A stretch of 30,930 nt of DNA from positions 1-30,930 of IMG/VR virus record IMGVR_UViG_3300030331_001697, one strand, 5' to 3'. This DNA comes from a virus. How positions within the stretch are numbered: position 1 is the stretch's first letter; each line of letters begins with the position of its first letter. Below, one piece after another: positions 11,953 through 15,638 of this stretch. Both the position numbers and the translations under genes were made by a program. Under the pieces are notes generated by a model. That model had not been told where the DNA came from and did no database searches. It worked only from the letters and a program-made list of their open reading frames with translations.

Positions 11953-12362
11953 AAATAGAACTAATTAAAAACGTTCATGAAGTAAATGTAAAAGATGATC
12001 CTGTAAGAAAAAATTTAACCTTTAAATTTAGAACTACACAGGGCAGGAGAATTTATACAATTAAAAATAAAGCAGTAGTGTGTGTGGCTAATACCATAGA
12101 CATTCCTATTAATGTAGAAGAGCTAAAAAAATTTTCTAGTAAAGACGCAAATGATTTCACTATTTTTTATACTTTATGGAGTTACAAAAAAGGTTATGGA
12201 ACCATTCTACTCAATACATTATTACCTATGTTAAAAACAAAAAGATATGTTACTTTGTCACCAAAAACAAACATGGCTTACAATTTTCATACAAAAAATG
12301 GTGCAAAATTGTTGTCAACAAATAGCAATAGTTACAATTTTGAATACTACAAAAAAATTTAA
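11949..12362 (+). CDS. GNAT-like acetyltransferase
   Basis: 137 aa, starting in an ATGA overlap with the upstream gene. The core has the GNAT look: strand 'FTIFYTLWSYKKGYGTILLNTLLPML' (acetyl-CoA pyrophosphate loop region, KxGYGT in place of the classic Q/RxxGxG/A), then 'RYVTLSPKTNMAYNFHTKNGAKLL' (the alpha4 region, with 'A-nFH-kNGA'). Phage acetyltransferases of this size are common and their substrates are mostly unknown; they may modify host or phage proteins. The N-terminal 50 residues fit the first strands and helices. Confidence 0.6.
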   Translation: MKIELIKNVHEVNVKDDPVRKNLTFKFRTTQGRRIYTIKNKAVVCVANTIDIPINVEELKKFSSKDANDFTIFYTLWSYKKGYGTILLNTLLPMLKTKRYVTLSPKTNMAYNFHTKNGAKLLSTNSNSYNFEYYKKI

Positions 12363-12729
12363 AAGCAAGTTAACTGAAAAAAAAATTTGGCAAAGACTTA
12401 ACCTAGTTCAAAAGAAGCTGAACGGATGTTTTTTTACTAGGATAGAAAGCCCTACAATAAACGGAATACCTGATGTTTATTGTATTTACGAGGGCTTATC
12501 TTTTTGGTTAGAATTAAAAGCTAATCAGGCTAAGAATTTAAACATTTCTAAATATCAAATAGCTTGGCATTTAAAATATAAGTCATGTGGAGGAAAAAGT
12601 TTTATCCTTAACTGGCCCGTCACGCATGAACCCCCCAAACTATACGAGGTCCGTGAACCTGGAGTTCCCGTTCCCGTTCCCACTCCCACAATCGAAAAAA
12701 AAATTTTAAAGGTTATTAGTCTCCTGTAG
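12340..12729 (+). CDS. PD-(D/E)XK nuclease-like protein (VRR-NUC type), repeat-derived C-terminus
   Basis: The conserved core reads 'FTRIESPTINGIPDVYCIYEGLSFWLELKA': a catalytic Asp in GIPD and Glu-x-Lys in ELK, the layout of small phage VRR-NUC/Holliday-resolvase-like nucleases. The start is uncertain: TTG at 12340 (129 aa), or ATG at 12298 or 12247, which would overlap the GNAT gene more deeply; none has a clear Shine-Dalgarno sequence. The C-terminal tail 'PGVPVPVPTPTIEKKILKVISLL' is translated from the head of repeat unit 1, so the gene end appears to have been overwritten by a repeat. Core residues precede the repeat, so activity may be kept. Likely role: DNA resolution or debranching before packaging. 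Confidence 0.65.
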   Translation: MNTTKKFKSKLTEKKIWQRLNLVQKKLNGCFFTRIESPTINGIPDVYCIYEGLSFWLELKANQAKNLNISKYQIAWHLKYKSCGGKSFILNWPVTHEPPKLYEVREPGVPVPVPTPTIEKKILKVISLL

Positions 12730-12757
12730 ATCCTGGCCAGGGCCGCAGCGGGTGGGA
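12665..12757 (+). repeat. GC-rich repeat unit 1 (about 93 bp)
   Basis: Head TTCCCGTTCCCGTTCCCACT from 12665, tail GGGCCGCAGCGGGTGGGA ending at 12757. The head is translated in the nuclease gene. C-tracts at 12667, 12673, 12679 and 12685 make a G3N3G3N3G3N3G3 pattern on the minus strand. Confidence 0.7.
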
Positions 12758-12764
12758 GGCTGGG

Positions 12765-12846
12765 TTCCCGTTCCCGTTGCGACCCAGAAAACGGGGGTTT
12801 CTTGTTCCTAGTATTGGTGATTCCGGCCCTGCAGCCGTGCGGGAAA
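12765..12846 (+). repeat. GC-rich repeat unit 2 (about 82 bp)
   Basis: Head TTCCCGTTCCCGTT from 12765; tail CCCTGCAGCCGTGCGGGAAA ending at 12846. The ends TTCCCG and CGGGAA are inverted repeats. Separated from unit 1 by only 7 bases, so the two are in tandem. Confidence 0.7.
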
Positions 12847-12929
12847 TTGCCTCTCAAAATCCCAGTTTTCTGCGTGTTTCGTGTGCCATCTTGCTGGCAG
12901 CAGGATCCAGGCAGATGCTTCATCAGGGC

Positions 12930-12958
12930 TTGACTTCCTGTAAAATCCTGTATATATA
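12930..12958 (+). promoter_or_regulatory. Sigma70-like promoter of the 12983 gene
   Basis: TTGACT (12930-12935), 17 bases, TATATA (12953-12958), 24 bases before the ATG at 12983. It has the same hexamers and spacing as the promoter at 8097, but without the TTATCCGA element. Confidence 0.6.
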
Positions 12959-12982
12959 TAAAGGATAACCAAAGGAGAAATT

Positions 12983-13267
12983 ATGAAAATAACTTTAAAC
13001 AAACAAAATTTTTTAGAGCAGGTGCGACAACATTCACGCTGGAAGTCCTTTAGCTATGAGGCATGGGAGCAGATCTTTGAATGGGAGGATGAGATGAATT
13101 CAGATGTAGAGTATGACCCTGTGTCGTTTTGCTGTGACTATGCAGAGTATGAAACATTCGACAAGTTGAAAAATGACTATAATAATATAAAAACTTTTGA
13201 CGATTTAGAGGGCAAGACTTGGGTAGCTAATTTGCCCGAGGGTCGTGTACTCATTAGGCAGTTTTAA
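12983..13267 (+). CDS. Conserved acidic hypothetical protein (94 aa)
   Basis: 94 aa with AAGGAG before the ATG. It opens 'MKITLNKQNFLEQVRQHSR', then 'FSYEAWEQIFEWEDEMNSDVEYDPVSFCCDYAEYETF'. I recognise this as a family frequent in phages and mobile elements, with the core 'FS--gl--lf-y-ee-----e-D-vs-CCDytEYe', of unknown function. It is strongly acidic, which would suit a DNA-mimic or host-protein inhibitor (inference only). Its stop overlaps the ATG of the next small frame. Confidence 0.7.
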   Translation: MKITLNKQNFLEQVRQHSRWKSFSYEAWEQIFEWEDEMNSDVEYDPVSFCCDYAEYETFDKLKNDYNNIKTFDDLEGKTWVANLPEGRVLIRQF

Positions 13268-13374
13268 TGGGTTCTTTAATTTTATTTTTGTTGGTCTGTG
13301 CGGTGTTCATCCCACAGACCACCCTTTTAGCATTTTGTTTTTTGCTAATCATGCTCACTTATTATTTGCAGTAG
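13267..13374 (+). CDS. Small membrane protein (35 aa)
   Basis: A TAATG overlap with the previous gene starts a 35-aa, almost wholly hydrophobic product (MGSLILFLLVCAVFIPQ..., then LLAFCFLLIMLTYYLQ) that could span the membrane once or twice. Its TAG ends exactly at the base before repeat unit 3. An 8-bp hairpin (GGTCTGTG 13293-13300 / CACAGACC 13313-13320) sits inside the frame, so a transcription-end hairpin rather than a gene is the alternative. A small holin-like or superinfection role is possible but unsupported. Confidence 0.45.
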   Translation: MGSLILFLLVCAVFIPQTTLLAFCFLLIMLTYYLQ

Positions 13375-13461
13375 TTCCCGTTCCCGTTCCCATGACAAAA
13401 AGTAACAGAGGTGATGCTTTAGTTAGGTTCAGGATGGCAGCCGGTGCCGCCGAGCGGGAAA
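13375..13461 (+). repeat. GC-rich repeat unit 3 (about 87 bp)
   Basis: Head TTCCCGTTCCCGTTCCCATG from 13375; tail GCCGGTGCCGCCGAGCGGGA plus AA ending at 13461. It abuts the stop codon of the small membrane ORF on the left and a promoter/operator on the right (about 55 bases away). Confidence 0.7.
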
Positions 13462-13515
13462 GTTGAATCATATTTTAGATTGTCCTACATTTGAAACCAT
13501 TAGATGAAAAATCAT

Positions 13516-13543
13516 TTGCATTATCCGATAAATATAGTATTAT
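13516..13543 (+). promoter_or_regulatory. Promoter with TTATCCGATAA operator (13521-13531)
   Basis: TTGCAT (13516-13521), 16 bases, TATTAT (13538-13543), or 19 bases to TATAAT (13541-13546). The 11-base palindrome TTATC-C-GATAA starts at the last base of the -35 box, as in the promoters at 8097, 14265 and 15217. The next ATG with a Shine-Dalgarno sequence is at 13569. Confidence 0.55.
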
Positions 13544-13568
13544 AATAGTAACAAACGGAGGTAATAAA

Positions 13569-13760
13569 ATGGAAGAAATTACAAAACTAATGTTACAAGA
13601 CCCACACTTCATAGAAGCGTTGAAAGATTTTGAGGCACAAGGGTTTATTAAAGTAAAGAAAGAGGGCATTGAAATAATAGACAGAGAGGGTCTGATGAAA
13701 TATTACAAGGACTTTGGTAAAGCTCCTGACCATTTCCCAAAGGTGGTGGAAGATGAGTAA
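13569..13760 (+). CDS. Small hypothetical protein (63 aa)
   Basis: The frame is open from 13491, but the promoter and operator lie inside that extension and ACGGAGGT stands just before the ATG at 13569, so I take 13569 as the start. The 63-aa product (MEEITKLMLQDPHFIEALKDF...) looks helical at first, then 'GFIKVKKEGIEIIDREGL', like a small winged-helix-type fragment. No family recognised. It is the first gene of an operator-controlled cassette with the 13753 gene. Confidence 0.6.
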   Translation: MEEITKLMLQDPHFIEALKDFEAQGFIKVKKEGIEIIDREGLMKYYKDFGKAPDHFPKVVEDE

Positions 13761-14001
13761 AGCAAAAAAAAGAAAACTATCTACACCAAAACAATTAGAA
13801 ATAGTAAACGAAGAAATGGAGAAGTTAAAAAAAAGACTTAAGTCTAAAGATGTGTCTGCTCCAAATTTTGTTTTTGGTACTCAATACTTCATAACTCAAT
13901 TTGCACACGACACCGCACCATCTTGTAATTTTGCTACAATGGTTTTGCTAGGAGCTATGAACAGCTACTTAGAAAATGATGTAGAAAAACAGCAAAATTA
14001 A
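13753..14001 (+). CDS. Small hypothetical protein (82 aa)
   Basis: The start is at ATG 13753 (AGGTGG upstream, 8-base overlap with the previous gene), not at the earlier in-frame ATG inside that gene. The N-terminus is very basic (MSKAKKRKLSTPKQ), then comes a charged helix and a less polar part 'NFVFGTQYFITQFAHDTAPSCNFATMVLLGAM'. No recognised family. Repeat unit 4, whose head forms a terminator, begins five bases after its stop. Confidence 0.55.
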   Translation: MSKAKKRKLSTPKQLEIVNEEMEKLKKRLKSKDVSAPNFVFGTQYFITQFAHDTAPSCNFATMVLLGAMNSYLENDVEKQQN

Positions 14002-14006
14002 TTTAG

Positions 14007-14092
14007 TTCCCGTTCCCGTTTTTTTACGGGAACGGGTTTTTTTTATATTTATAGTTTAGAGGCTGGCCGCGGACCGCACAACGGGTGGGAAA
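14007..14092 (+). repeat. GC-rich repeat unit 4 (about 86 bp)
   Basis: Head TTCCCGTTCCCGTT from 14007; tail CGCGGACCGCACAACGGGTG plus GGAAA ending at 14092. The middle holds an inverted copy of the head (ACGGGAACGGG) followed by eight T. Confidence 0.7.
14009..14044 (+). terminator. Intrinsic terminator built from the repeat head
   Basis: CCCGTTCCCGT (14009-14019) pairs with ACGGGAACGGG (14026-14036) in a perfect 11-bp GC-rich stem, followed by eight T. It is placed right after the gene ending at 14001. Confidence 0.8.
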
Positions 14093-14099
14093 ACGTTAA

Positions 14100-14179
14100 T
14101 TCCCGTTCCCGTTTTTAAAAGCGTTTCTATTTGGTTTGTTGATTTTGGTCTTTTCCAGCAGGGCCGCCGGAGCGGGAAA
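14100..14179 (+). repeat. GC-rich repeat unit 5 (about 80 bp)
   Basis: Head TTCCCGTTCCCG from 14100 continuing TTTTTAAAAGCGTTT, identical for 27 bases with unit 6; tail GGGCCGCCGGAGCGGGAAA ending at 14179. Unit 4's tail and unit 5's head can pair as ACGGG(T)GGGAA with TTCCC(GTT)CCCGT. Confidence 0.75.
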
Positions 14180-14264
14180 TGGGGTTTATGAAAAAATTTC
14201 AAGCCGTTTAAATGCACCAGTTTGGTTTTGAAGGTAGTTGACTACCTAGAAAAATAAAAAAAAC

Positions 14265-14293
14265 TTGCAATTATCCGATAAAATAGTTAAAAT
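14265..14293 (+). promoter_or_regulatory. Promoter with TTATCCGATAA operator (14271-14281)
   Basis: TTGCAA (14265-14270), 17 bases, TAAAAT (14288-14293), with the palindrome TTATCCGATAA directly after the -35 box. The transcript would lead into the gene at 14322. Confidence 0.65.
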
Positions 14294-14321
14294 ATATTTT
14301 TAACCAAACAAGGAGAATATA

Positions 14322-14918
14322 ATGGGATTTGATTTATATGGACAAAATCCAAAATTAAAAGGCGAAGAACCTAATATTAATTGGGACAAAAAACCATCAG
14401 ACAAAGAAAAAGAAGAATACTTCAAAGCAAGAGAAAAATTTGAAGATGAAAATCCAGGTCATTATTTTAGGAATAATGTTTGGTGGTGGAGACCATTAGC
14501 TCAATATGTTTTGCAATTAATGGGTAATGAGTTCACAGAAGATGAGCAAAAGAGTTGGCATCATAATGACGGCTTTGAAGTAAGCGAAGAAAAAGCTAGA
14601 AAAATTGCTGACAGACTTGAGCAAGAACTCAAAACAAATAGGGTGAAAACTGTTGAAGAGTTTTACAAAACAAGAATGAAGAAAGCAGAAGAAGAAAATA
14701 AAATAGTTCAACAGAAACACGAAGAACTAAAAAAGATTGTTGCAGAAAAAACTGGAAAGGATAATCTAGTCCCAAGAGATTATCCAGAACCATTTAACAG
14801 TCAATGGGAAGATATACAAAAGCAATTCAATTATGAATCTTCTTATCCATTTTCAGAGGATAACGTAATTAACTTTATGAAGTTTTGTCGTGCATCTGGG
14901 GGCTTCCAAATTTGTTAG
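14322..14918 (+). CDS. Conserved hypothetical protein, 'GFDLYG...YFRNNVWWWRPL' family
   Basis: 198 aa with AAGGAG before the ATG. The start 'MGFDLYGQNP', the block 'GHYFRNNVWWWRPLAQYV' (about 46-63) and the end 'FMKFCRASGGFQIC' are hallmarks of a family I recognise from bacteria and phages, annotated only as hypothetical. The middle is a long charged helix (about 85-150). The conserved Trp/Arg/Asn cluster and terminal Cys suggest a binding pocket, but no activity is known. It is a single-gene transcription unit with its own operator-bearing promoter and a strong terminator. Confidence 0.75.
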   Translation: MGFDLYGQNPKLKGEEPNINWDKKPSDKEKEEYFKAREKFEDENPGHYFRNNVWWWRPLAQYVLQLMGNEFTEDEQKSWHHNDGFEVSEEKARKIADRLEQELKTNRVKTVEEFYKTRMKKAEEENKIVQQKHEELKKIVAEKTGKDNLVPRDYPEPFNSQWEDIQKQFNYESSYPFSEDNVINFMKFCRASGGFQIC

Positions 14919-14937
14919 AAGTCTTTTTACTTTTTGG

Positions 14938-14972
14938 AGAGGGGTTGCTATATTTAGCAATCTCTCTTTTTA
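14938..14972 (+). terminator. Intrinsic terminator after the 14322 gene
   Basis: Stem AGAGGGGTTGCTA (14938-14950) / TAGCAATCTCTCT (14955-14967), 13 pairs including two G-U, with loop TATT and a T-run. Confidence 0.85.
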
Positions 14973-14992
14973 TTATTAACTTCGTTAAATAG

Positions 14993-15075
14993 TTCCCGTT
15001 CCCGTTTTTAAAAGCGTTTAGAAAATTTTTTTATATTATTGTTTTAGCAGCCGCCAGGATCGCACGGGTGGGAAA
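14993..15075 (+). repeat. GC-rich repeat unit 6 (about 83 bp)
   Basis: Head from 14993 sharing 27 identical bases with unit 5; AT-rich middle; tail GCAGCCGCCAGGATCGCACG plus GGTGGGAAA ending at 15075. Confidence 0.75.
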
Positions 15076-15097
15076 GTTACTTATAAACTCCGAGGGA

Positions 15098-15135
15098 TTC
15101 CCGTTCCCGTTTCGAAAAGCGTTTTCCCGTTCCCA
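15098..15135 (+). repeat. GC-rich repeat unit 7, partial (two heads, no tail)
   Basis: Head TTCCCGTTCCCG from 15098, then TTTCGAAAAGCGTTTT and a second head TTCCCGTTCCCA (15124-15135). No GC-rich tail follows, so this copy looks truncated or half-duplicated. Confidence 0.65.
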
Positions 15136-15216: not shown

Positions 15217-15244
15217 TGGACTTTATCGGATAATACACTATTAT
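15217..15244 (+). promoter_or_regulatory. Promoter with inverted operator TTATCGGATAA (15223-15233)
   Basis: TGGACT (15217-15222), 16 bases, TATTAT (15239-15244). The palindrome is the reverse complement of the sites at 13521 and 14271, at the same position after the -35 box. It serves the operon starting at 15303. Confidence 0.55.
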
Positions 15245-15302: not shown

Positions 15303-15638
15303 ATGGTAAAAAAAATCTTAAACAAAAAGCAGTATCTTAATAGTTTAATTATTAGAATAGAGCAATTAGATAAACAGAGAAAAGACATTTCAAAGGCGAT
15401 TGCTAATTCAAAAAAAGATGCGATTAAATTATTAGGAAAAAAAGTATCTCATACTTTTGATAATCAATTAGAAAAAATTGTATTACAGATAGTTAAAACT
15501 ACAGATTATGTTTTAGATATTCAAAAGTTAAAAGATGCTAATATTTATGAGAAGTATAAAACTAAAGAAAGAAATACTACAAAGTTTCATATTACTAGAG
15601 AAACTTTAGATGTTACTTCAAAAAAGAGAAAAGCATAA
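15303..15638 (+). CDS. Basic hypothetical protein (111 aa)
   Basis: 111 aa with ACGGAG before the ATG. Lys-rich with a helical N-terminal half ('IIRIEQLDKQRKDISKAIANSKKDAIKLL') and basic ends; it could bind nucleic acid. No family recognised. First gene of a five-gene small-protein operon (to 16539), and one-base overlap with the next gene. Confidence 0.6.
   Translation: MVKKILNKKQYLNSLIIRIEQLDKQRKDISKAIANSKKDAIKLLGKKVSHTFDNQLEKIVLQIVKTTDYVLDIQKLKDANIYEKYKTKERNTTKFHITRETLDVTSKKRKA

Follow-up and report, generated by a model that had tools for sequence, protein, structure and literature searches.

The repeated GC-rich units that lie between the small genes of this phage are probably regulatory cassettes at gene boundaries, composed of a terminator and tail followed by an operator and promoter, and probably serve at the same time as points of gene exchange. 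In the window, by which we mean the whole 30,930-nt stretch analysed, exact TTCCCGTTCCCG heads were found at seven positions (12665, 12765, 13375, 14007, 14100, 14993 and 15098), together with three one-mismatch heads within or adjoining the exact-head units, all of them on the plus strand. A two-mismatch scan of the window returned 12 near-exact heads against 0.41 expected, a number that no shuffle reached; the two-mismatch matches on the minus strand, at 14027 and 14167, are inverted partners within units 4 and 5. When the sequence was re-checked, it agreed with the initial annotation on the coordinates of the six complete units and their CGGG(T)GGGAA-type GC-rich ends, on their single orientation, and on the 27 head bases common to units 5 and 6. 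The array is laid out as follows.

12247..12729, plus strand: ORF with a nuclease/helicase-type PHROG match, the upstream border of the unit array
12665..12757, plus strand: unit 1 (slot A1), whose head codes for the C-terminal residues VPVPVPTPT of the ORF just upstream (end 12729)
12765..12846, plus strand: unit 2 (slot A2), with tail TTCCGGCCCTGC..GCGGGAAA
12930..12957, plus strand: likely promoter (TTGACT-16-TATATA, read by eye) upstream of ORF 12983-13267
12983..13267, plus strand: small cassette gene located after unit 2 and before unit 3
13375..13461, plus strand: unit 3 (slot B), starting 0 nt past the TAG of a 35-aa ORF (13267-13374)
13515..13543, plus strand: sigma-70-like promoter that precedes ORF 13569-13760 and holds operator TTATCCGATAA (13521-13531)
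13569..13760, plus strand: small cassette gene (63 aa) located after unit 3 and before unit 4, with a weak Crp-like HTH match under the Pfam cut-off
13753..14001, plus strand: small cassette gene (g_13753) preceding unit 4, replaced or missing in relatives
14007..14092, plus strand: unit 4 (slot C1), starting 5 nt past the g_13753 stop
14009..14044, plus strand: predicted intrinsic terminator within unit 4, CCCGTTCCCGTTTTTTTACGGGAACGGG followed by T8 (dG -21.9), with the unit head as its 5' arm
14100..14179, plus strand: unit 5 (slot C2), missing from L131, L241 and L218
14265..14293, plus strand: sigma-70-like promoter that precedes ORF 14322-14918 and holds operator TTATCCGATAA (14271-14281)
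14322..14918, plus strand: cassette gene (g_14322) between units 5 and 6, 198 aa, matching no known family
14993..15075, plus strand: unit 6 (slot D1), starting 0 nt past a TAG, with tail core GGATCGCACGGGTGGGAAA
15098..15135, plus strand: partial unit 7 (slot D2), with two heads 26 bp apart and lacking the CGGGAA tail
15217..15244, plus strand: promoter-like site that precedes ORF 15303-15638 and holds operator TTATCGGATAA (15223-15233)

Each unit spans about 80-95 bases and comprises a (TTCCCG)n head directly 3' of a stop codon, an AT-rich middle, and a GC-rich tail of the pattern ...GGATCGCACGGG...GGGAAA, which bears out the initial description of a discrete repeated intergenic element with partly complementary ends. 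The tail starts at a median of +48 from the head (quartiles 44-52, 117 units). The near-constant length that the initial annotation emphasized is thus genuine, but it arises because the GC tail stands at a near-fixed distance from the head, and not from any demonstrated closed structure. The tail contains a conserved core (GGATCGCACGGG / CCGGCCCTGC...GCGGGAAA), and in slot D1 the motif GG[AC].CGCAC..G is invariant while the middle cannot be aligned. This GC-rich tail is a defined sequence of 12-30 bp; we might guess at a DNA-binding or recombination role for its core, and its conservation is left unexplained by the reading of the units as gene-boundary cassettes. The first head fell within -6 to +12 nt of the stop codon of an ORF of 30 or more codons in 46 of 85 cases, mostly at 0-6 nt, compared with 6.8% of random positions, and in slots B and C this placement is kept even though different phages have unrelated genes upstream. 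Gaps in the terS-terL region run from the stop codon through one to three units to, in most gaps, an operator-bearing promoter, then the RBS and the next gene.

The initial annotation had seen no copies elsewhere in the window; units do, however, occur in other viruses, namely in about 30 IMG/VR contigs that are related to the window and to Pelagibacter phage HTVC023P. These viruses are very common in the ocean. Throughout these records, which measure 41-57 kb, the units are always on one strand and confined to a single stretch of 2-3 kb between terS and terL; HTVC023P itself has no units between these two genes. Unit 1 lies in a stretch that is 100% identical in the relative L132, which also has unit 3, there with a truncated head. 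Scans of viral contigs with the tail only gave AT-rich matches in this phage clade alone, each accompanied by a head or by a drifted TTCCCAC-type head. In the genome scan, the matches listed were scattered over unrelated bacteria in a chance-like manner, with no SAR11 among them. The literature searched yielded no report of intergenic repeats in pelagiphages and, as initially stated, no described family with these ends.

Many unit middles hold a predicted intrinsic-terminator hairpin and T-tract, often with the (TTCCCG)n head as the 5' arm. A hairpin with dG of -7 or lower plus a T-tract was present in 27 of 118 distinct units, against 7.7 expected from shuffles. In unit 2 a terminator-like hairpin, CCC..GGGGG (dG -9.2), is followed by TTTCTTG, and the slot-C1 units of the closest relatives have a predicted terminator at the same position as unit 4, with 3' arms that differ yet still pair with the head. 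The remaining 91 of 118 units are above -7 kcal/mol, that is, without a recognisable strong terminator, and termination can therefore not be all that the units do. Downstream of most units we predict a sigma-70-like promoter whose operator is the palindrome TTATCCGATAA. Allowing at most one mismatch, TTATC[CG]GATAA was matched at 47 sites in the 49 kb of unit regions and at 2 sites in 92 kb outside them; at the likely promoter 12930..12957, relatives carry TTGACA..TATATT. That the operator is shared suggests that the small genes form a regulon, with a putative regulator.

Related phages differ in their genes, promoter blocks and units, which also change position, and a unit has been lost whole. 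The front of the C1 unit is occupied, depending on the phage, by g_13753, c13, c23, c15 or nothing; c15 precedes g_14322 in L224, L227 and L231, and follows it in L106 and L216. The window block made of the unit-3 tail and the promoter has 86% identity over 112 bp with an L131 block that precedes a different gene. In slot C, homology starts at the stop codon or unit head. The nearest relatives change from gene to gene. The comparison of presence and absence in relatives, proposed at the outset, revealed one clean loss: precisely one unit is missing from L131, L241 and L218, and the junction falls inside the GGGAAA tail. The correlation of identity across unit gaps was 0.06 for gap A, 0.11 for D, 0.31 for B and 0.57 for C, and across unit-free borders 0.57 and 0.59, the number of borders being too small for statistics. 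A sharp exchange junction within a unit was looked for between the window and L131 and not found, the clearest switch (from 100% to about 90% and below) being near 14440, in the 5' part of g_14322. The values for gaps B and C, this switch, the 91 units lacking a strong terminator and the unexplained GC tail are points against the reading as gene-boundary cassettes.

The units could also be ordinary intrinsic terminators in a GC-rich style peculiar to the lineage, with shuffling at gene borders merely tolerated and the repeats uninvolved. We consider this possible but unlikely: it would suit the location at gene 3' ends, the enrichment of T-tract hairpins and the slot-C1 hairpin kept despite changing 3' arms, but strong hairpins with T-tracts are restricted to the 27 units, head and tail core are conserved above the terminator part (slot D1), gaps often hold two or three tandem units, and the tails lie outside the hairpins. 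The initial annotation had itself set its proposal against ordinary terminators fixed at every position; many units do contain predicted terminators, but gain and loss of units is seen, and the genes around them are reshuffled. A further suggestion is a structured RNA, either a cis-regulatory element or a small RNA, closed by a head-tail stem that was expected to covary. Head and tail are able to pair in 88% of cells, a figure that drops when the partner is shifted along, and whole units have a slight folding advantage over shuffles (z=-0.96). No compensatory changes in the stem were seen among 14 divergent slot-D1 units, though, nor any association between the G/A position of the head and the C/T position of the tail (Fisher p=0.48); the tail alone folds no better than shuffles (z=-0.2), the slot-C alignments gave no consensus structure, and no Rfam family matched at the gathering threshold, relaxed limits adding no more than matches to the greA and PyrR leaders at the unit-4 terminator, which scored far under the cut-off. 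Since covariation, excess tail folding and an Rfam match are all lacking, a structured RNA is not supported and appears highly improbable.

Readings that invoke mobility fare similarly. Miniature elements of the MITE or REP type, mobile in trans as was initially suggested, with the enzyme supplied by host or phage, would account for the discrete length, the partly inverted ends, the one to three copies per gap and the one-unit difference between relatives. Target-site duplications of at least 4 bases, on the other hand, were found in 3 of 55 cases against 8% of controls, which is no signal, and the copies stand right behind gene ends on one strand of one short stretch; the AT-rich contigs added no other phage group and the listed genome matches looked fortuitous, so that we hold this origin to be extremely unlikely. 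An arrangement with conserved ends and a variable middle, 3' of small shuffled genes and in one orientation, is also that of integron cassettes, and each gene with its 3' unit might be a mobile cassette bounded by attC-like sites of a dedicated site-specific system. The R-box pair (RYYYAAC ... GTTRRRY) is nevertheless missing from both strands of all 118 units, no integrase, transposase or RAYT partner was found among the window ORFs scanned, the cassettes have their own promoters, and junctions are not at a single fixed base; to this reading, too, we assign a minimal probability. MITE, REP and integron readings are therefore unsupported, as target-site duplications, attC boxes and scattered copies are all missing. 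We also think it very unlikely that the head and GC tail are the recognition ends of a phage-encoded gene-exchange system, in which a protein binding or cutting the tail core would drive swaps between co-infecting pelagiphages; if true, these would be integron-like modules without an integron integrase.

Under the preferred reading as gene-boundary regulatory cassettes, transcription of a gene would stop at the units behind it, which would make every small gene a separately promoted and operator-controlled transcription unit, as far as predicted signals indicate. The common head and tail sequences of the units would supply homology at gene borders, so that co-infecting phages, or the units of a single genome, could exchange complete genes undamaged by recombination or annealing. 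If small genes are delimited and swapped by such a discrete border element, this would explain how gene exchange leaves reading frames intact.

Several known systems share part of this organization. The SAS/ESAS elements of Cluster K mycobacteriophages (PMC3203893) are likewise short intergenic repeats, in part imperfect inverted repeats, tied to a subset of genes, and have been suggested as possible recombination targets; SAS are found at translation starts, whereas the units are at gene ends, are longer and have terminators. The inverted repeats of Cluster O mycobacteriophages (PMC4351075) also show apparent deletions by recombination between two copies, but are 17 bp long, symmetrical, without clear orientation, genome-wide and partly intragenic. 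With the attC sites and CALINs found in phages (PMC9892861) the units have in common a position 3' of each arrayed small gene, one orientation, conserved ends and a variable middle, and differ in lacking R-box motifs and a detectable integrase and in the genes' own promoters. Many units resemble intrinsic (rho-independent) terminators in their hairpin and T-tract 3' of a stop codon, but have a constant head and GC tail outside the hairpin, and many are without a strong hairpin. T4-type phages reportedly carry PeSLs (promoter-early stem-loops), said to have been described by Arbiol et al. in 2010 and Comeau et al. in 2014. PeSLs, on which PMC4503421 and PMC3950731 touch, are repeated intergenic elements with a promoter and a stem-loop or terminator, set between small variable genes, for which modular shuffling by recombination is proposed. 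The units are similarly intergenic repeats in which, though not in every case, predicted terminator hairpins are followed by operator-promoters, and are similarly linked to variable, shuffled small genes. They differ in that the phage is a relative of HTVC023P and not T4-like, in having sigma-70-like promoters with the TTATCCGATAA operator instead of a T4-type early promoter, in the terminator unit preceding the promoter, in the extra GC tail at near-fixed spacing and in the occurrence of one or more tandem units, the comparison being one of layout. Our best reading is that the units are functionally like PeSLs, yet of a different kind, and as gene-boundary cassettes they would place PeSL-like elements beyond the T4-like phages, in a group of lytic SAR11 phages.

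We read the units best as gene-boundary cassettes, each a terminator-bearing unit with an operator-promoter. A scan of the window, a virus record of 30,930 bp, found the head TTCCCGTTCCCG in seven exact copies between 12665 and 15098, all on the + strand, in agreement with the single orientation proposed in the initial annotation; its unit coordinates and the 27 bases common to units 5 and 6 also proved right when checked on the sequence. With up to two mismatches there were 12 sites against 0.41 expected, a number attained in no shuffle. Aligning 117 units on the head gave two GC peaks, 0.68 at positions 0-10 and 0.65-0.71 at 50-70, separated by a middle richer in AT, with +48 (quartiles 44-52) as the first position of the GC tail. 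Among 14 divergent units at the position of unit 6 (slot D1), the head and the tail core GG[AC].CGCAC..G are conserved and the middle is unalignable. CCAG/CTGG, CAGC/GCTG and GATC abound in the tails; in all relatives these motifs are strongly enriched on both strands of the GC tails, in a genome of 33% GC.

The window is related to Pelagibacter phage HTVC023P (72% DNA identity across 16% of its 10-17.5 kb, terS and terL included), which lacks such units though homologous genes are present there. Pattern scans of viral contigs and a terL search gathered the same units in about 30 distinct contigs, where, with window proteins mapped, they lie between the nuclease-like gene after terS and the gene block preceding terL. 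The layout recurs in more distant relatives, where the head differs, being TTCCCGTTTCCCG (contig L135) or ATCCCGTAATCCCGTTCCC (L053, L080 and L023). Units at gene ends in distant pelagiphage contigs (terL 66-74%) are analogous, their heads being different (ATCCCGTAATCCCGTT) and their tails GCGGGCGCCGG, and given these the layout may be older than the present head sequence:

L053, 4650-5250 and 5950-6400: analogous gene-end units
L080, 1150-1700 and 2400-2850: analogous gene-end units
L204, 700-1500: analogous gene-end units

The units occupy four gene gaps of the window (slots A to D, holding units 1/2, 3, 4/5 and 6/7). In slots B and C the first head lies 0-6 nt past the stop codon, irrespective of the preceding gene. 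Counting ORFs of 30+ codons, 46 of 85 first heads fall at -6 to +12 nt from an ORF stop (6.8% for random positions), against 5 of 76 second or third heads. The slot-A head is itself coding: the nuclease-like ORF takes its C-terminus (VPVPVP) from it. In the window, units 3 and 6 start immediately past a TAG. This TAG ends short hydrophobic ORFs exactly at the two heads (13267-13374, 35 aa; about 14905-14992, about 26+ codons), and similar short ORFs terminate at the same place in relatives.

Downstream of the unit, most gaps contain a sigma-70-like promoter and then an RBS (for example AACGGAG). The motif TTATC[CG]GATAA usually lies between the promoter hexamers or just past them in slots B, C and D; at up to one mismatch, the unit regions of the relatives (49 kb) hold 47 copies and the 92 kb outside hold two. 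At cassette-gene promoters of the window the motif is found as follows:

13521-13531: palindromic operator-like motif TTATCCGATAA
14271-14281: palindromic operator-like motif TTATCCGATAA
15223-15233: palindromic operator-like motif TTATCCGATAA

The shared motif suggests a regulon of cassette genes. One cassette gene (13569-13760) encodes 63 aa with a weak Crp-like HTH match under the Pfam cut-off, and this HTH-like product is a candidate operator binder.

An intrinsic-terminator hairpin (dG <= -7 plus a T-tract) recurs in the first half of the unit, in 27 of 118 distinct units against 7.7 expected. The clearest predicted terminator is in unit 4 (CCCGTTCCCG...CGGGAACGGG TTTTTTTT, 14009-14044); in related units of that position (slot C1) the 3' arm varies and pairing with the head is retained. 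The slot-A terminator CCCAGAAAACTGGGGTTTTTT (12785-12806) has a second copy past the tail, at about 12868-12885, which reads CCCAGTTTTCTG in most phages and CCCAGAAAACG in L224, L231 and L066; lineages seem to differ by an inversion of the hairpin loop.

Phages differ in which genes lie between the units. The slot preceding unit C1 holds the ORF g_13753, gene c13, c23 or c15, or nothing, and c15 lies upstream of g_14322 in some phages and downstream in others. The unit-3 tail and promoter of the window are 86% identical over 112 bp to a block preceding a different gene in L131; slots C and D of L229 are alike over 147 bp; and one whole unit is missing from L131, L241 and L218, the junction falling within the tail GGGAAA. 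The nearest relative shifts gene by gene, being L132 (nuclease-like ORF), L045 (g_12983), L214 (g_13569) and L131 (g_14322) for four successive genes. Identities of neighbouring genes correlate at 0.06 (slot A), 0.11 (D), 0.31 (B) and 0.57 (C) across unit gaps, and at 0.57 and 0.59 across unit-free borders, a contrast that, as the borders are few, is suggestive and no test. Against L131 the window has one clear switch, near 14440 within g_14322: identity is 96-100% from about there through terL, and upstream mostly 60-90% or unalignable. Judged from the alignment, this change is a recent recombination of two phage lineages.

The stem first proposed to close head on tail showed no covariation: it is formable in 88% of cells, yet no pair was changed on both sides, and RNAalifold likewise found no two-sided changes. 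Compared with shuffles, whole units fold at z=-0.96 and tails show no excess folding (z=-0.2). Variation in the head has no association with variation in the tail (p=0.48), and an Rfam search of the units returned no family. These results do not support a structured RNA. The MITE- or REP-like element of the initial annotation fails its tests as well, heads in 41-57 kb records being confined to one strand and a single 2-3 kb stretch, and so does an attC reading.

For gene-boundary cassettes, we infer activities in termination and recombination: the cassette would insulate each small gene and would also supply homology for gene exchange at the borders. The literature searched, whose coverage leaves out most subscription journals, held no earlier report of the units. 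Promoter-early stem-loops (PeSLs) of T4-type phages, as described at second hand in PMC4503421 and PMC3950731, differ in the phage group, in the type of promoter and in how the parts are ordered, and the units are therefore not members of the PeSL family; on the cassette reading, the two are functionally alike.
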